Positions 52,476 to 59,931 of a stretch of 64,000 nt of DNA are shown in pieces. Location: the NCBI GenBank assembly GCA_030653545.1, contig JAURZE010000024.1:62001-126000 (forward strand). Direction: 5' to 3'. Numbering within the stretch: position 1 is the first letter of the stretch; every line of letters starts with the position of its first letter. The translations under genes were made by a program, and so were the position numbers. This stretch comes from Nitrospira sp. (GTDB taxonomy: Bacteria; Nitrospirota; Nitrospiria; Nitrospirales; Nitrospiraceae). The notes under the pieces are model-generated. The model made no database searches and had not been told where the DNA came from. It worked only from the letters and a program-made list of their open reading frames with translations.

Positions 52476-54008
52476 GTGAAGACTGTTGCGACGCTTGCAC
52501 CACTGACAACCAAGCTGCTGGAAATCACCAGAATCAACAGCGCCGCATCCGTCTTGTCATGGGATCAGGAAACGCACATGCCGGCCGGCGGCGGGGAAGC
52601 GCGCGCGGAACAGATCGCCGTGCTCCAAGGCCTCGCCCACGACAAACTCGTCTCCCCGGATATCGAACGGCTTCTCGCCGCCACCGTCGACCCGACGACG
52701 GGACAGGCCATCGATCAACCGGGCGATCTGTGGGACGAACCCTCGCGCTCGCTGCTGCGGGAAATCTGGCGGGACTTCAGCCGGGCAAAAAAGCTCCCCT
52801 CCGATTTTGTGGTCCGGCTCAGCCGGGAAACCTCCCTGGCGCAGCAGGTCTGGGCCGAGGCCAAAGAGCAGAACAACTTTCGCCAGTTTCTCCCCAACCT
52901 CCGCACGGTGCTCGCGCTCAAACGGGAAGAGGCTGAATACCTCGGGTACAAGACCTCCCCCTACGACGCGCTTCTGGACGTCTACGAACCAGGGTCCACC
53001 ATCGCCACGCTCCGGCCGTTGTTTGCGCAGATGAAAGCGCGACTCGTGCCGCTGCTCAAGCGCGTGACCCAGAGCCCGAATCAGATCGACGACAGCATCC
53101 TCCGGCATTCGTACGATCAGGCCCGGCAGCTGGAATTCGGCCGGCTTGTGCTGATCGCCATGGGCTACGATTTTGAGCGCGGACGGCTGGACCTCTCCGC
53201 CCATCCGTTCACGACATCGTTCCATCCGACCGACGTACGCGTGACCACGCGCGTCCATGAGCACGAACTGCAATCCTGCCTCTTCAGTTGCATTCACGAG
53301 GGCGGCCATGGCCTCTACGATCAGGGACTCGACCAGCGCTACTTCGGCACGCCGCTCGGAGAATCCGTGTCGCTCGGCATCCATGAGAGCCAGTCGCGCA
53401 TGTGGGAAAACTGCGTGGGGCGCTCGCGGGCCTTCTGGCAGTTCTTTTACCCGATCCTGCAACAGACGTTTCACCACCAATTGCGCGGCATCGATCTGGA
53501 GCACTTCTATGCCGCCATCAATTGCGTGAAGCCCTCCTTCATCCGCGTCGAGGCCGACGAGCTGACCTACAATCTGCACATCATGCTGCGCTTCGAAATC
53601 GAGCAGGATCTCATCGAAGGCCGGACACAACCGGACGATCTGCCCGGCATCTGGAATCAGAAGATGCAGGACTATCTCGGCATCACGCCCCCGACTGATG
53701 CCGAAGGCGTATTGCAAGACGTGCATTGGTCGTTCGGCGCCTTCGGCTACTTCCCGACCTATACGCTGGGCAACCTCTATTCGGTCCAGTTCTTCGAACA
53801 GGCCAAGCTGGAGATTCCCCACCTGGACGATGAAATCGCGGCCGGCCAATTGCTGGTACTGCGCCGCTGGCTGGAGCAAAAGATCCATCGCTGGGGCCGC
53901 ATGTTCGCCCCGGACCACCTCGCCCAGCGCGTGACAGGGAAAAGCATCAACCCGGAGCCCTTCCTGACCTACCTCGAAAAGAAATACGGCGAGCTCTACA
54001 AGCTGTAA
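52476..54008 (+). CDS. M32 family carboxypeptidase (Taq type)
   Basis: A zinc metallocarboxypeptidase of 510 residues, as in Thermus. The metal motif HEGGH is at residues 274-278 (CIHEGGHGLYDQG), and HESQSRMWEN gives the third ligand region. Translation starts at GTG behind GGAGG. It is divergent from the methyltransferase. The large open frame on the other strand is its mirror and not a gene. Confidence 0.94.
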   Translation: MKTVATLAPLTTKLLEITRINSAASVLSWDQETHMPAGGGEARAEQIAVLQGLAHDKLVSPDIERLLAATVDPTTGQAIDQPGDLWDEPSRSLLREIWRDFSRAKKLPSDFVVRLSRETSLAQQVWAEAKEQNNFRQFLPNLRTVLALKREEAEYLGYKTSPYDALLDVYEPGSTIATLRPLFAQMKARLVPLLKRVTQSPNQIDDSILRHSYDQARQLEFGRLVLIAMGYDFERGRLDLSAHPFTTSFHPTDVRVTTRVHEHELQSCLFSCIHEGGHGLYDQGLDQRYFGTPLGESVSLGIHESQSRMWENCVGRSRAFWQFFYPILQQTFHHQLRGIDLEHFYAAINCVKPSFIRVEADELTYNLHIMLRFEIEQDLIEGRTQPDDLPGIWNQKMQDYLGITPPTDAEGVLQDVHWSFGAFGYFPTYTLGNLYSVQFFEQAKLEIPHLDDEIAAGQLLVLRRWLEQKIHRWGRMFAPDHLAQRVTGKSINPEPFLTYLEKKYGELYKL

Positions 54009-54136
54009 CATCCATCCGCCACCGACAGCGCTGACGACAATTGGCTCTACCCCAAAAGGCCCTATCGCCCAGGTTCATAAATGGCTACCCTCCGCCTACG
54101 TGAGTCTCGTGATGTCCGTCATGGCCGGATGGCATT

Positions 54137-56794
54137 TTGGAAGGCAGTGGTACCCACGTGCTTCCTCAGCCAAGTTCCAGGTTGGCAATCAGCGTTCTCC
54201 TCTGTACGATCGTCGTTTTCATTGGCGACATCCTCACCCCGCTTGGCTATGCTGAAGCCATCCTCTATCTCGTCCCGCTCCTCCTGAGTTCGTTTCTATA
54301 CGAACCGCGGCTCCCGTTTCGCATCGCCGGGACGTGCACCCTGCTGATCGCGGCCGGCTTTGCGCTGTCTCCACCAGGGGCCCCCGTAGCCTATGCCGTC
54401 CTCAATCGGACATTGGCTGTGATCACCCTCTGGACGGTCGCCTTCGGGCTCCGCCGATTGATCCGGGACCGCATCGCCCATTTCCAGGCCGAACGGCGCT
54501 GGCAGTTGCTGGCCCGTCAGACCAACGACATCCTCTGGGACTGGGACCTTCGCACCAACGCCCATTGGTGGAGCGAGAACGCGGTCGCGGTATTCGGATA
54601 CGACCCGGTCCGCGAGCCTTCCATCAAAGCCTGGCAATCGCGGCTTCATCCAAAGGATCGCAGCCGCGTCCTCCAAGACATCCAATCGGCCATCGAGAAC
54701 GGGCAATCCGGCTGGACTGGCGAGTATCAATTTCAAGTTCTGGATGGCACCTTTCGCACGTTTCTCGATCGTGGCACCATCATCCGAAACGGGTCGGGCT
54801 CAGCGATCCGCATGATCGGCGCGATGATCGATATCACCGCGCGCACACGCGCCGAAGCAGCGTTGCGACTGTCCGACGCACGGTTCGCCAATCTCGTCAA
54901 TCATCTCGACAGTGTCGTCTGGGAAGCCACTCCGGGGACATTGGCCTTTACCTTTGTCAGCCCGCACGCGGAAACCCTCCTGGGCTATCCCGTAAGCCGG
55001 TGGCTCGAAGACCCGGCCTTCTGGCCCGATCACATCCACCCGGAGGACCGTGACGCCACCGTACAGGCTTGTCTCGCGGCAACGGCACAAGGGCTCAATC
55101 ATCGTGCGGAGTACCGCATGATCGCCGCAGATGGACGCATCGTCTGGGTCCACGATGTCGTCACCGTGACCTGTGAGGAGGGTCGTCCGAAGACGGCGCA
55201 GGGCATTCTCATCGACATTACCAGCCAAAAGCATCTGCAAGCCGCCTTGCGCCAAAGCGAAGAGCGGCTGGCGCTCGCCGCAGAAGGCTCGACCGACGCC
55301 TGGTGGGACGGACACCGCCTGCCGGGGCGCGCCATGCTCGATCCGGAGAATCCGATCTGGTGGTCGCCCAAAATCCGCGACATCCTGGCGCTGAACGAGT
55401 CAGACCCGTTTCATACGCTCGCCCACTGGGCTCAGCGATTGCACCCTGACGACAGCGGCCAGGTGTTTGCCGCCCTGCAGGAACACCTCCAGCAGCAGAC
55501 TCCGTTCGATGTGGAATACCGCATACGAACAAACCGGGGCGACTTCCGCTGGCTGCGGGGACGCGGCCGGGCCATCCGAGACCTTCACGGCGAACCCCGG
55601 CGCATGGCCGGATCCTGCCAGGACATCACGGACCGAAAGATCGCCGAGGAAGCCCTCCGCCGGAGCGAAACACAATTGAAAGAAGCCCAGCGGATTGCCG
55701 GACTGGGGAGCTGGGAATGGACAGCAGAATCCGTCGTCACCTGGTCGGATGAGACCTACCGCATCTTCGGCTATATTCCCCGGAGCGTCCTCCCATCCTA
55801 CGATCTGTTCGTCGAATCCGTACATCCGGACGACCGCCGGCAGGTCATCGCCGCCCTCCGCGAGACGCTGATCCAGGACACGCCCTATGACCTGGTCTGT
55901 CGCATTCTCCGTCCATCAGGAGAAGCGCGCCACATCCGCTGCCGCGGGGAGGTGACCCGCGATGGAACCGGCGCCCCCCTGCGTGTGACTGGCACGGTCG
56001 AAGATATCACTGACCGACACTTGGCCGAGGCCAAGCTACGCACCGCCTATACACGGCTCCAGGAAGTCACCCGGCAGACCGCGACGGTGGAAGAAAACGA
56101 ACGCCGCCGCATTGCCCGGGAAATTCACGATGAACTGGGACAGCTGCTGACCGCCATGCGCTTTCAGCTGGCATCGCTGAAGAAGAGCCGGCACTCGCAC
56201 GCCTCCCGGGAGGCCACGCAAGACGACGATGCCCGGCTGAACGATCTGTTACACCTGAGCGATTCGATGCTCAAGCAGGTGCGACACGTGAGCACCTCTC
56301 TCCGTCCCGCCATTCTGGATGAACTCGGGTTGATTCCCGCTGTGCAGGCTCACGCGCAACAATTTGAAGTCAGAACCGGAATCGCCTGCGACGTCGTGGT
56401 CGAGCCCGCGCTAGTCGAAGTCCCGTTTGACGATGCCACGGCCTCGGCCGTCTTCCGGATCGTGCAGGAACTTCTGACCAATGTACTGCGTCATGCGCGC
56501 GCAATGGCCGTGAGCATCTCCTTGATCCGCACCCGGAATCTGCTGACCGTGGTGGTCCATGACAATGGGACCGGCATCACGCCGAACCATCAGACGCGGC
56601 ACGACTCGTTCGGGCTGAAAGGGATCACCGAGCGCGCCATGCTCCTTGGCGGCACGTTTACGATTGCACCCCATCCGTCGGAAGGTACCGTCGCCACACT
56701 GCATATTCCACTGGCCGTCCTCCTTCCTCCGCCTTCGGCCTCCACCGCTCGCTCACCCCTGAACCAGGAGGGACATGAAAATCCTGTTGGTTGA
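54137..56794 (+). CDS. membrane histidine kinase with four PAS domains (HisKA_3)
   Basis: The N-terminal four-helix sensor (about residues 18-112; DILTPLGY, LSPPGAPV, LNRTLAV) is the same as in the kinase at 48.7 kb. Four PAS/PAC domains follow (about 125-640, e.g. DILWDWDLRTNAHWWSE, GSWEWTAE), then HisKA_3 with REIHDELGQLLTAMRFQL and HATPase with HDNGTGITPN. 885 residues. The start is uncertain: TTG 54137, GTG 54158 and TTG 54182 are open. It overlaps the next regulator by 20 bases. Confidence 0.9.
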   Translation: MEGSGTHVLPQPSSRLAISVLLCTIVVFIGDILTPLGYAEAILYLVPLLLSSFLYEPRLPFRIAGTCTLLIAAGFALSPPGAPVAYAVLNRTLAVITLWTVAFGLRRLIRDRIAHFQAERRWQLLARQTNDILWDWDLRTNAHWWSENAVAVFGYDPVREPSIKAWQSRLHPKDRSRVLQDIQSAIENGQSGWTGEYQFQVLDGTFRTFLDRGTIIRNGSGSAIRMIGAMIDITARTRAEAALRLSDARFANLVNHLDSVVWEATPGTLAFTFVSPHAETLLGYPVSRWLEDPAFWPDHIHPEDRDATVQACLAATAQGLNHRAEYRMIAADGRIVWVHDVVTVTCEEGRPKTAQGILIDITSQKHLQAALRQSEERLALAAEGSTDAWWDGHRLPGRAMLDPENPIWWSPKIRDILALNESDPFHTLAHWAQRLHPDDSGQVFAALQEHLQQQTPFDVEYRIRTNRGDFRWLRGRGRAIRDLHGEPRRMAGSCQDITDRKIAEEALRRSETQLKEAQRIAGLGSWEWTAESVVTWSDETYRIFGYIPRSVLPSYDLFVESVHPDDRRQVIAALRETLIQDTPYDLVCRILRPSGEARHIRCRGEVTRDGTGAPLRVTGTVEDITDRHLAEAKLRTAYTRLQEVTRQTATVEENERRRIAREIHDELGQLLTAMRFQLASLKKSRHSHASREATQDDDARLNDLLHLSDSMLKQVRHVSTSLRPAILDELGLIPAVQAHAQQFEVRTGIACDVVVEPALVEVPFDDATASAVFRIVQELLTNVLRHARAMAVSISLIRTRNLLTVVVHDNGTGITPNHQTRHDSFGLKGITERAMLLGGTFTIAPHPSEGTVATLHIPLAVLLPPPSASTARSPLNQEGHENPVG

Positions 56795-57410
56795 TGACCA
56801 TGCCCTGGTCCGCCGCGGTGTCGCCCATGTGCTCCAGGAAGACCTCCCCGACCTGACGATCGTCGAGAAAGGCACCGCACTGGATGCCCTTGAGGCCGTT
56901 CACGCCACTCCCTGGGATCTCGTCATTCTCGACATCAATCTGCCTGACAAAAGCGGTCTCGATGCGCTCAAAGACATCAAGCGGATCTCTCCAGACTTGC
57001 CGGTGCTGATACTCAGCCTCTACCCGGAAGCTCAGTATGCCAGACGCGCGCTGAAAGCCGGTGCCTCCGGTTATCTCACCAAAGACACCGCGCCGGAAGA
57101 AGTCACGACTGCCGTGAAACGGATCTTGCAGGGGGGCCGGTATGTGAGCGCCGCGCTGGCAGAGCAACTCGCCGCCGATCTCGGCACCACCTCCGGCGAG
57201 GCTCGGGAACCGCACGAAAGGCTCTCGGATCGGGAACTCGAAGTGCTCCGACTCATCGGATCAGGCCGGACTCCCACGGAAATTGCCGAGCAGCTTGCCC
57301 TCAGTATCAAAACCGTCAGCACCTATCGAGCACGCATCCTGGAGAAGTTGAACCTTCGAACGACGGCTGAGTTGATCCGCTTTGCCGTTGACCATCAGCT
57401 GGCGAAGTGA
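56775..57410 (+). CDS. NarL-family response regulator
   Basis: 211 residues: LLVDDHALVRRGVAHVL, phosphoacceptor in LVILDINLPDKSGLDAL, Lys in GYLTKDT, then LuxR HTH (LSDRELEVLRLIGSGRTPTEIA, LSIKTVSTYRARILEKL). ATG follows AGGAGGGAC and lies inside the kinase end, so they are a cognate pair. Confidence 0.93.
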   Translation: MKILLVDDHALVRRGVAHVLQEDLPDLTIVEKGTALDALEAVHATPWDLVILDINLPDKSGLDALKDIKRISPDLPVLILSLYPEAQYARRALKAGASGYLTKDTAPEEVTTAVKRILQGGRYVSAALAEQLAADLGTTSGEAREPHERLSDRELEVLRLIGSGRTPTEIAEQLALSIKTVSTYRARILEKLNLRTTAELIRFAVDHQLAK

Positions 57411-57562
57411 CCCCGCCGCCGCGCACCCTCCCGTCAGACTTTCCCTGACAAGCTAACGGTATTGAGTCCTACGCAATAATGAGACTGCCGCCGATTGCCG
57501 AAATCCTGCCGACCGCGCATCTGTACAGAATAGTTCACTGTACCCTGATGGTGTTTCACAAT

Positions 57563-58333
57563 ATGCCCATACGCCCCGCACCCCGCGCCGCTCGTACCAT
57601 CCTCATCGCTGACTCCGAACTGCCCACGCGCATGGGGCTTCACACAATTCTGGCAGCCTTGCCTGGCCTGAATGTGCTGTTTCCCGTTTCCTCGGCCACC
57701 GAACTGCTGACAGACGCAGGCCGGTGGCGGCCGGACTTGGTGCTGATGGGCACCAGATTTTCAGATGGCGACGGGATCGAAACCTGTCGAGCCCTCCTCA
57801 GTCGATGCCCGGACCTGCGTATCGTGTTCGTCGCCAATGCCGCCACCGCACAACTGCTCCTCCACACGATGCAGGCCGGCGCGATGGGCTTCATTCTCAA
57901 AACCTTTCACCCTTCCAGGCTGTCCGGAGTCGTCACGCAGGTGCTGGCCGGAAAACCGGCGTTCGATTACGATCTCATGAGCACCGCCCTGAAGTGGATG
58001 GGGCAGCAGGCAGAATCCCCGCAAGGGCTGGCCCCACACCTCTCTCCCAGACATCAGCAGATCCTCCCGCTCCTGAGCGAGGGTCTTACCAACAAGGAAA
58101 TCGGCGCCCAGCTCAACTTGAGCGAGAAGACCGTCAAAAACTACCTCGCCGACCTCTTCGACCGGCTGCACATGTCGCGCCGCTCCCAAGTCGCCGCCTG
58201 GTTCATCAATCGCACAGTCCAGCATATCCCGCCTCCCTATACATCCATGGCGGCCGAGACAATCCGGGGACGCACTCGCTCCCGCTCACTGATTCAAGAG
58301 GAGCTATTGCATGCCCACAATTCTGCTTATTAG
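57563..58333 (+). CDS. LuxR-type regulator with degenerate receiver
   Basis: The receiver-like domain reads TILIADSELPTRMGLHTIL and LVLMGTRFSDGDG, where the phosphoacceptor Asp is replaced by Gly63; the Lys is kept in GFILKTF. The C-terminal HTH (LSPRHQQILPLLSEGLTNKEIG, LSEKTVKNYLADLFDRLHM) is intact. It probably binds DNA without phosphorylation. The start is uncertain (ATG 57563, 57548 or 57479). It overlaps the next gene by 23 bases. Confidence 0.82.
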   Translation: MPIRPAPRAARTILIADSELPTRMGLHTILAALPGLNVLFPVSSATELLTDAGRWRPDLVLMGTRFSDGDGIETCRALLSRCPDLRIVFVANAATAQLLLHTMQAGAMGFILKTFHPSRLSGVVTQVLAGKPAFDYDLMSTALKWMGQQAESPQGLAPHLSPRHQQILPLLSEGLTNKEIGAQLNLSEKTVKNYLADLFDRLHMSRRSQVAAWFINRTVQHIPPPYTSMAAETIRGRTRSRSLIQEELLHAHNSAY

Positions 58334-58706
58334 CGACGATGACACCTTCCGAAACTCACTCCGCCAATCCATGGGGCATGACGGAGCTGCCGTGCTCGGC
58401 GTCCCGAACACCCGAGCGATCCTCAGCCAACCGGGAGCGCGACAAGTGTCGGGGTACGACCTCATTGTCGCAGAGGTCCTCTCAAGCGATCATGACGGAC
58501 TCTCCCGGCTGGTCCTGTTCCGCAATCTGCACCCCAACACACCCTTCATCGCCGTGACGCGCGAAGACCACAGCGGGGGGCTGGCCTATGGCGGAGCTGC
58601 CGCACGAGCCTTGCGCGCCTGGCACGTTCCCGTCGCGGCCGACTCCTTGGCTGGACTGACCGACACCACCACCCGTGCCCTCAGGGGCGAATCGCCTCCC
58701 CGGTAG
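58311..58706 (+). CDS. degenerate single-domain receiver
   Basis: 131 residues, fold ILLISDDDTFRNSLRQSM, then DLIVAEVLSSDHDGLSRL, where Glu55 replaces the phosphoacceptor Asp. Asp-to-Glu can mimic phosphorylation. FIAVTRED fits the Thr region; the conserved Lys is not evident. ATG follows AGAGGAG. It ends the kinase-regulator series on this strand. Confidence 0.72.
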   Translation: MPTILLISDDDTFRNSLRQSMGHDGAAVLGVPNTRAILSQPGARQVSGYDLIVAEVLSSDHDGLSRLVLFRNLHPNTPFIAVTREDHSGGLAYGGAAARALRAWHVPVAADSLAGLTDTTTRALRGESPPR

Positions 58707-58789
58707 CGGACTCACGCCCGCTGAGGTGTGACGCCGTCCGGCACAGCCCCCTACCAGCCTCGTCTGATCGTCCGCCGGCCGTGAAACGA

Positions 58790-59353
58790 CTAATACCCCA
58801 TCGCGATGTTGAGCTTGGACAGGATGGCGGGCGAGAGCGTGAATTCCGCCTGCACCTCGATGCGATGCGGAACCAGCAGTGTAGTGTGGAAGACAATGTC
58901 GCGTATGGGAATCTTGAACTCGGGATCTTGAGGGGTACTCAGTTCGACGGCCTCGACGGAATTCGTGATGGCGCCGCTGTCCTGCGGGCCATAGGTCGTC
59001 ATAACCGCGTCGATAATCTCCTTCACCTTCTCATTCGCTTCCACACCCTCCATGCTTTTGAGCAAGAGCGGAATGACTTCCTCTTTTGCCTGATCGGACA
59101 GGGTGAAGTTTTCGACCCGCTCTTTCCGGCGCAGTGACATCAGGTCGTTGTCGAGATCCTTACTGAAGGCGCCGTACGCGAACCGAAAAAACTCGAAATG
59201 AAACCCCTTGAAGCCTTTCCCAAACGTCTGGAGCTCGCACAGAAAGCCTAGCTGCTGCAACTTGACGTCGCTCAGCAGTCCGTGCGGTTCGGCAAGATAC
59301 AGCACATACAGCAGCAGCGCTCGATCCACCGTAATCTGATTCGGCTTTCTCAT
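58790..59353 (-). CDS. hypothetical protein, weakly Panacea/SocA-like
   Basis: 187 residues, no signal peptide. The N-terminal half (ALLLYVLYLAEPHGLLSDVKL, LGFLCELQTFGKGFKGFHF and RFAYGAFSKDLDNDLMSL) recalls the KLQKLLYL...YGP pattern of the Panacea (DUF4065) domain, but the match is weak. The C-terminal half has strands ending in NIAMGY. It is convergent with the signalling series and divergent from fur. Confidence 0.55.
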   Translation of the reverse strand: MRKPNQITVDRALLLYVLYLAEPHGLLSDVKLQQLGFLCELQTFGKGFKGFHFEFFRFAYGAFSKDLDNDLMSLRRKERVENFTLSDQAKEEVIPLLLKSMEGVEANEKVKEIIDAVMTTYGPQDSGAITNSVEAVELSTPQDPEFKIPIRDIVFHTTLLVPHRIEVQAEFTLSPAILSKLNIAMGY

Positions 59354-59499: not shown

Positions 59500-59931
59500 A
59501 TGCCCAAACATGTGAAAGAGATGGAAGCGCTGAAAGCGCACCTCGGCAAACACCAGCTGAAGTACACGCGCCAGCGCGAACTCATTCTTGACGCGTTCCT
59601 CCAGCAGGAACACATCACCGCCGAAGAGATGTACCACCAACTGGCGAAGAAAGACCCGCACCTGGGGCTTGCCACCATCTACCGTACCCTCAACCTGTTT
59701 TGCGAAGCCGGTCTGGCACAGGCCCGGCATTTCGGCACGCAGACGCAATATGACAACATTTCCCACAAGGGTCATCACGACCATCTGATTTGCACCGACT
59801 GCGGCAAGATCGTGGAGTTTGAAAACTGCGAGATTGAAAAGCTTCAGCAGGAAGTCGCCACCCGGAACGGCTTCACCATTTCCACTCACCGCCTTGAACT
59901 CTACGGCCTCTGCGGACGCTGTCGTCATTGA
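59500..59931 (+). CDS. fur: Fur-family metal regulator
   Basis: 143 residues: winged helix with TRQRELILDAFLQQEHITAEE and GLATIYRTLNLFCEAGLA, then the metal-binding HHDHLICTDCGKIVEFE and C-terminal CGRC zinc site. The position just before an iron importer favours Fur over PerR or Zur, although sequence alone does not exclude those. ATG has GGAGGGTCGG upstream. Confidence 0.92.
   Translation: MPKHVKEMEALKAHLGKHQLKYTRQRELILDAFLQQEHITAEEMYHQLAKKDPHLGLATIYRTLNLFCEAGLAQARHFGTQTQYDNISHKGHHDHLICTDCGKIVEFENCEIEKLQQEVATRNGFTISTHRLELYGLCGRCRH

Follow-up and report, generated by a model that had tools for sequence, protein, structure and literature searches.

What becomes of response regulators that have lost the Asp accepting the phosphoryl group, and do two such genes side by side form one signalling branch? 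These questions are raised by a locus of Nitrospira sp. in which the neighbouring genes pLux and pREC encode Gly and Glu in place of this Asp. The stretch of DNA analysed here, referred to as the window, comprises 64,000 nucleotides (bases 62001-126000 of contig C24 from a genome of 3.94 Mb, labelled G000). Its features are collected in Table 1. An earlier note on this DNA had described both replacements, a normal kinase-regulator pair upstream and the overlap of the two genes on the same strand, and had proposed a phosphorylation-independent branch, for example by binding to the active regulator. Positions, strand and residues were all confirmed, as was the normal make-up of the pair: the RR protein contains PF00072 (90.4 bits) and GerE domains, and HK is a sensor kinase with the expected domains. 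Both pLux and pREC start with ATG, and the start of pLux is the same in the four orthologues. Their overlap is present at three of the four loci that carry the HK-RR-pLux unit (hereafter called the cassette) and is missing in G032. The HK of G095 (L078 1760-5704) covers a longer region than that of G000, with overlapping PAS matches that suggest extra PAS repeats. At E <= 1e-30, COI, encoded downstream, was found in 69 of the 79 genomes of the genus; its sole family hit was a weak one to SocA_Panacea (E 0.065, below the cut-off), NCBIfam giving none.

Table 1. Features of the locus (positions within the window; aa, amino acids).
Feature	Position	Strand	Basis or remark
CP, M32 carboxypeptidase gene	52476-54008	+	
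Leader/promoter region, 3' of CP	54009-54136	+	counterpart directly before pREC in cassette-free genomes
HK, sensor histidine kinase	54137-56794	+	Pfam: PAS_3 repeats, HisKA_3, HATPase_c
RR, response regulator of NarL/UvrY type (Asp, Ser and Lys present)	56775-57410	+	Pfam, residues
Palindrome TGTCRG-N7-CYGACA, putative operator before pLux	57432-57450	.	here CGTCAGACTTTCCCTGACA, one mismatch
TCCTAC, conserved, possible -10 element	57467-57472	+	alignment of four loci
pLux, DevR/NarL-type regulator with pseudo-receiver	57563-58333	+	PF00072 (54.1 bits) and GerE
Receiver domain of pLux (aa 12-121), evolving fast	57596-57925	+	dN
pLux Gly63 codon GGC at phosphoacceptor Asp site	57749-57751	+	
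DNA-binding domain of pLux (aa 156-216), evolving slowly	58028-58210	+	dN; alignment with 27 Asp-bearing relatives
pLux/pREC overlap, 23 nt	58311-58333	+	
pREC, stand-alone receiver-like protein, 131 aa	58311-58706	+	PF00072 24.6 bits, under cut-off
Conserved block of pREC (aa 44-85), region of beta3-alpha3-beta4	58440-58565	+	alignment
pREC Glu55 codon GAG at phosphoacceptor Asp site	58473-58475	+	
COI, 187-aa protein	58790-59353	-	
Fur-family gene	59500-59931	+	

The genome of G000 contains 131 PF00072 matches at E <= 0.001, three of them under the cut-off, and the Asp column could be read in 130 (the last being a second-half fragment without that column). With pLux and pREC counted in, this column holds Asp in 123 cases, Glu in five, and Gly and Pro in one each. 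A review puts the directly counted share of pseudo-receivers at about 6% (about 13% had been inferred earlier) and cites about 4% for receivers lacking Asp (PMC12632262), while Glu (26%) has been reported as the commonest replacement, with Gly at 11% (PMC4395418). Since 7/130 is near the published shares of about 4% and 6%, each loss by itself is ordinary. Two other Glu-bearing sites were noticed in this genome. A receiver-like match under the cut-off, some 190 bases ahead of the start of the window (C24:61487-61810), lies within a 493-aa frame and lacks the DD pair, Thr and Lys in addition to Asp. A NarL-type relative of pLux (C33:6834-7166, 30% identity) has retained Thr and Lys and is, judging from these residues, a phosphomimetic-looking sister of pLux. 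Among the matches listed in our literature searches on pseudo-receivers and Nitrospira two-component systems, none was on this locus by title or abstract.

We then asked how the active site of pLux compares with that of its orthologues. These occur in only four of 79 genus genomes (E <= 1e-46), namely in G000, G025 (64%), G032 (67%) and the most divergent, G095 (57%). The Asp column holds Gly in the first three, which group together in the tree (support 98), and Asp in G095. All four proteins have Ala in place of Thr (Ala91 in G000) and have lost one acidic residue, which some alignments place at DD1 (Ala) and others at DD2 (Ser or Arg). Three of them have retained Lys (Lys113 in G000), whereas G032 has Gln. 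The best pLux matches of 27 further genomes (L004-L030), by comparison, have Asp, Thr and Lys intact throughout. Thr and the acidic residue appear to have been lost before Asp, because the G095 protein lacks both and still keeps its Asp. The earlier note had taken an Asp-bearing orthologue as a sign of sequencing error or recent decay; the single case found, G095, points to a derived loss and not to an error. Such an error, or a very recent decay, was excluded for Gly63 and Glu55, since both residues are shared with other species: Gly is present in three of the four pLux orthologues and Glu in all 11 genomes that contain pREC. The pLux receiver passes the curated PF00072 cut-off of 30.2 bits. 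The best solved relative, over the whole length, is DevR/DosR of Mycobacterium tuberculosis (119.8 bits), whose aligned chain has Asp, Thr and Lys where pLux has Gly63, Ala91 and Lys113. A structure model of pLux, of fair quality for the receiver, resembled mostly NarL-type regulators among its best 50 Foldseek matches.

A possible origin of pLux as a duplicate of the neighbouring RR gene was ruled out, as the two proteins share only 24% identity in the receiver (20-24% over the four species) and 33% in the DNA-binding domain (HTH). They belong to different NarL branches, which neither shows nor excludes binding between them. Substitution rates were determined by the NG86 method, pairwise among the four cassette species (six pairs). 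In five pairs, dN was 0.27-0.48 for the pLux receiver and 0.07-0.09 for its HTH, which is a 4-6-fold difference; in the closest pair, G025/G032, the values were 0.09 and 0.04, and the ratio was only 2.5. The HTH is 91-93% identical at a dS of up to about 2. For the RR receiver, dN was 0.05-0.07 (0.025 in G025/G032). The dN/dS ratio was 0.04-0.09 for RR, 0.16-0.40 for the pLux receiver and 0.37-0.77 for the pLux tail over pREC (five computable pairs).

To the 27 Asp-bearing relatives, pLux is 47-64% identical in the HTH and 30-37% in the receiver. The motif LSEKTVKNY, which we take to be the recognition helix, is exactly matched in 15 of these 27 proteins, and three DevR-like paralogues in G000 that have kept their Asp contain KTVKNY or KTIKNY. 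Because such a near-identical recognition helix is kept, pLux may act on sites like those of its Asp-bearing paralogues. Taken one step further, pLux could pair or compete with these paralogues at shared sites, as a constitutive agonist or antagonist. The kept helix and the kinship to DevR speak for this idea, but the receiver identity of just 30-37% and a search for target sites that found none speak against it, and we regard it as doubtful. We rather propose that pLux would be a DevR-type transcription factor that no longer uses phosphorylation and whose amount is set by the neighbouring pair.

Between RR and pLux (gaps of about 150 nt at the four loci), the alignment is poor apart from a palindrome, the sequence TCCTAC and a short segment following the latter. 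TGTCRG-N7-CYGACA is found at all four cassette loci, in each case with TCCTAC 16 nt further on. In its arms, 22 of 24 positions are paired, with one compensated change (in G032), and none of 1000 column shuffles reached that. Taking TCCTAC as a -10 element would place the centre of the palindrome near -38; a promoter scan called nothing at pLux. The arms resemble the half-sites of the UvrY consensus TGTAAGNNNNNNCTTACA, written TGTAAGN6CTTACA (PMC4682653), but the spacing is 7 here and 6 for UvrY. Furthermore, the UvrY site is located far upstream of csrB, whereas the palindrome is close to the putative promoter. The RR protein itself has UvrY/SirA/GacA (NF007018) as its best NCBIfam model, but scores far below the equivalog cut-off (165.1 vs 280).

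We also looked for a regulon of the palindrome. In the G095 genome, its exact long pattern has a single copy, at pLux, as has the control; it is absent from the G000 genome, whose copy has one mismatch. A shorter pattern was found 24-44 times per genome (control, 15-34) and was no commoner in cassette-bearing genomes. The window contains 14 matches with up to two mismatches as compared to 9.35 expected, a number reached by 10 of 100 shuffles. Overall, these searches in the genomes and the window gave nothing specific.

According to a review, an atypical regulator beside a normal system can either interact with it directly, or be a constitutive regulator whose level that system sets (PMC12632262). 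The second possibility is favoured here, because the palindrome precedes pLux and the pLux receiver drifts: phosphorylated RR would act on the palindrome and thereby determine the amount of pLux. The dN/dS of the receiver and the 2.5-fold ratio in G025/G032 would also fit a slow decay of pLux as a gene without a function of its own, and so would the value for its tail and its presence in just four of 79 genomes. However, the frame is open in all four species, the HTH is highly conserved, the palindrome is kept with a compensating change, and the arrangement of the genes recurs in the genus (see below). Decay is therefore very improbable.

Orthologues of RR at E <= 1e-115 are restricted to the same four of 79 genus genomes as pLux (up to 39 candidates were scored per genome), and at all four loci HK, RR and pLux are adjacent on one strand, including G095 with its Asp-bearing pLux. 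The next matches (E <= 1e-70) are relatives of about 58-59% identity in G025, G031 and G062. In G031 and G062, a large kinase and the RR relative are followed by a DevR-like regulator whose Asp column holds Thr; the G062 locus has a further receiver between the latter two. The second RR relative of G025 (L208) has no LuxR gene behind it, and a copy of the palindrome near this gene lies within a kinase gene. A genus search with the G062 regulator yielded a second Asp-less group of 16 loci in 16 genomes (L212-L227; 42-100% identity to the G062 regulator; G100:C26, at 48%, and most of the listed matches at 38-44% were left out of the count). None of the 16 regulators has Asp, the column being occupied by Glu (7), Lys (4), Thr (3), Ala (1) or Gly (1), whereas the other 14 loci read from this search all have it. 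We scored an RR relative as present if at least 44% identity over at least 70 aa was found on the same strand within 1.5 kb upstream. This applied to 14 of the 16 second-group loci (exceptions, L220 and L222) and to none of 41 loci of Asp-bearing relatives (14 plus the 27 mentioned above), some of which had less than 1.5 kb of upstream sequence. A kinase was present at both second-group loci that were opened (G031 and G062). At five second-group loci (L215, L216, L217, L219 and L221), two RR relatives stand in tandem upstream of the Asp-less regulator.

A Fisher test on these counts (p 1.6e-11) treats related loci, picked by similarity, as independent and is unreliable; for the same reason, the neighbourhood evidence amounts to two lineages and not to 57 independent cases. 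GTCRG-N6-8-CYGAC was not found in any of the 16 upstream stretches (up to 400 nt) of second-group regulators. The palindrome is therefore no general mark of the arrangement. In a tree built without the active-site columns, pLux and the second group stand apart, but one common clade was not rejected (p-AU 0.27), so that a surely separate origin of the two is unsupported. Since G095 keeps its Asp, two losses are the simpler count either way: unless it was regained in G095, Asp would have disappeared from RR-linked regulators on at least two occasions. Taken together, the arrangement of a normal regulator followed by an Asp-less DevR-type regulator recurs in Nitrospira.

The link to the kinase-regulator pair suggested in the earlier note thus gained support from the position of RR upstream of pLux at 4/4 loci and of its relatives at 14/16 second-group as compared to 0/41 Asp-bearing loci. 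The recurrence indicates that RR-type and Asp-less genes belong together; it does not distinguish between control of the pLux level and binding. In the latter case, pLux or an Asp-less relative would contact the active RR or the kinase, either forming a mixed dimer or restraining or assisting phosphotransfer. The repeated neighbourhood is in line with such a contact, and in Clostridioides difficile pull-downs revealed binding between the regulators CmrR and CmrT, although two-hybrid assays gave no signal (PMC12548384). But the pLux and RR receivers share only 20-24% identity over the four species, and that of pLux drifts fast while that of RR does not, which is unlike the expectation for a shared interface. 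We therefore consider direct contact unlikely and favour control of the pLux level by the pair.

Does pREC belong to the same branch? Nine of the 68 genomes lacking pREC were opened, and in all of them CP and COI are located end to end, and the gap of about 26 nt between them contains none of HK, RR, pLux and pREC. The 11 genomes with pREC form one clade (support 100; some inner nodes, 9-56), and pREC was therefore probably gained once. The gene order is CP-leader-pREC in seven of them, and in the other four HK-RR-pLux lies between leader and pREC. In the seven cassette-free genomes, pLux and RR are absent genome-wide. An obligate pairing of pLux and pREC was thus ruled out, and the suggestion of the earlier note that both may form one branch was not supported, because 7/11 pREC genomes are without the HK-RR-pLux unit at the locus. 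The same number argues against a direct contact of pREC with RR. Rather, pREC appears to be an older, separate piece that has been in place longer than the cassette can be traced.

The closest genome compared, G093 (CP dS 0.04), is without the cassette. The leader of G000 is identical to its CP-pREC gap at 123 of 129 nt and can be aligned in the other cassette-free genomes. It contains GCTAYCCT, exact in 7/11 pREC genomes, which is perhaps the ancestral pREC promoter. The 90 nt before pREC of G093 resemble those of G065 (0.72) and G026 (0.70), but not those of G000 (0.44). The identity between G000 and G093 is 0.58-0.75 at 58.6-58.9 kb (partly due to alignment gaps), 0.91-0.96 up to 59.3 kb and about 0.95-1.0 on both sides; dS was 0.21-0.22 for pREC and COI. 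This dip (58600-59335) is likely the border of a recombination tract. The simplest reading would be an allelic exchange at the cassette border in G000 or G093.

At E <= 1e-12, pREC was identified in 11 of the 79 genomes of the genus; among 295 genomes sampled from the phylum, nine contained it at E <= 1e-15, all of one genus. At E <= 0.001, 30 of 59 genomes gave a match, and the weaker ones (about 25-33%, two at 42%) were excluded as orthologues. We call the protein receiver-like, because its PF00072 score is under the cut-off of 30.2 bits and its profile matches PDB receivers at E 0.01-0.05 only. Glu55 aligns with the Asp of DctD and of G000 receivers and is present in 11/11 genomes (G032 and G095 were read from two contig ends each). 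In G095, the pREC pieces on the two ends (L077 and L078) differ in their shared part, and the assembly seems to be strain-mixed. DD1 is Ser or Cys, Thr83 is invariant in nine sequences, and the Lys site, where MAFFT places Ala103 and alignment by eye Val106, has no conserved Lys.

In nine full-length pREC sequences, 64 of 131 columns are invariant, with 34/42 in aa 44-85 and 30/89 elsewhere (the p-value of 6e-7 for this block is optimistic, as it was picked after looking). Only six of 17 columns are invariant in aa 86-102, and the alpha4-beta5-alpha5 half is the variable part. Mean pN was 0.204, 0.059 and 0.225 for aa 1-43, 44-85 and 86-129, respectively. The corresponding pS values were similar (0.635, 0.585 and 0.557), which rules out a constraint at the DNA level as the cause of the block. 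Between G000 and the eight others, dN/dS of pREC was 0.06-0.37. An AlphaFold2 model was too poor for use (mean pLDDT 48.3). The invariant Glu55 might mimic phosphorylation and so lock the domain in a permanent "on" state, in agreement with the conserved Thr83 and with Glu being the commonest replacement of Asp in the published survey. This is improbable, given that there is no kept Lys for Glu55 to pair with, that DD1 is Ser or Cys and that the alpha4-beta5-alpha5 half is variable. More probably, pREC would dock to a partner via the constrained region 44-85. A precedent for a docking pseudo-receiver is FrzS of Myxococcus xanthus, which docks via alpha3-beta4-alpha4 (PMC12632262). FrzS has a predicted C-terminal coiled coil, whereas pREC has just 131 aa, is most constrained in beta3-alpha3-beta4 and varies in the alpha4 region.

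Combining these results, we suggest that the HK-RR pair sets the amount of a phosphate-deaf pLux, while pREC, which now presumably ends the transcription unit, is a separate docking protein. We assign this whole reading a probability of roughly 0.48. Of the phosphorylation-independent branch proposed in the earlier note, it retains that both proteins lack residues for normal phosphorylation and that both are maintained, but not their union in a single branch.

The pLux system is a variation on already known pseudo-receiver regulators. BldM and WhiI of Streptomyces are NarL-type regulators. They are likewise atypical; they work together and are described as orphans (PMC4125116), whereas pLux has a kinase-regulator pair next door, and a heterodimer of the BldM-WhiI type would be hypothetical here. 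CmrRST of C. difficile also combines a kinase (CmrS), a normal regulator (CmrR) and a pseudo-receiver regulator (CmrT) in one operon, and its two regulators are not duplicates either. The normal regulator of CmrRST recognises an upstream site, for which the palindrome before pLux would be a putative counterpart (PMC12548384, PMC12632262). It differs in being of the OmpR type, as compared to the NarL/DevR (GerE/LuxR) type here, so that the Nitrospira system would work alike without being a member. Further differences are the recurrence within a genus, the palindrome inside the unit before pLux and the separate pseudo-receiver behind it.

More speculatively, and less probably than the reading given above, it may be the very place behind a UvrY-type regulator that costs a DevR-type regulator its phosphoacceptor. 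The first regulator alone would then read the phosphate, and the second would be a dose-controlled, phosphate-deaf output. In one lineage, this module would have landed before pREC, a genus-only docking protein in which conservation is reversed relative to ordinary receivers. What activates or inactivates bacterial pseudo-receivers has been called a "mystery" in a 2025 review (PMC12632262). Here, one genus offers a natural series, from relatives with a full active site to regulators without Asp: G095 still has Asp after the loss of Thr and an acidic residue, G000 and G025 are without Asp, G032 has also lost Lys, and the second group has Thr, Glu, Ala, Gly or Lys for Asp. The link to a UvrY-type neighbour makes it directly testable whether such a constitutive regulator is under dose control or whether the two regulators bind each other.
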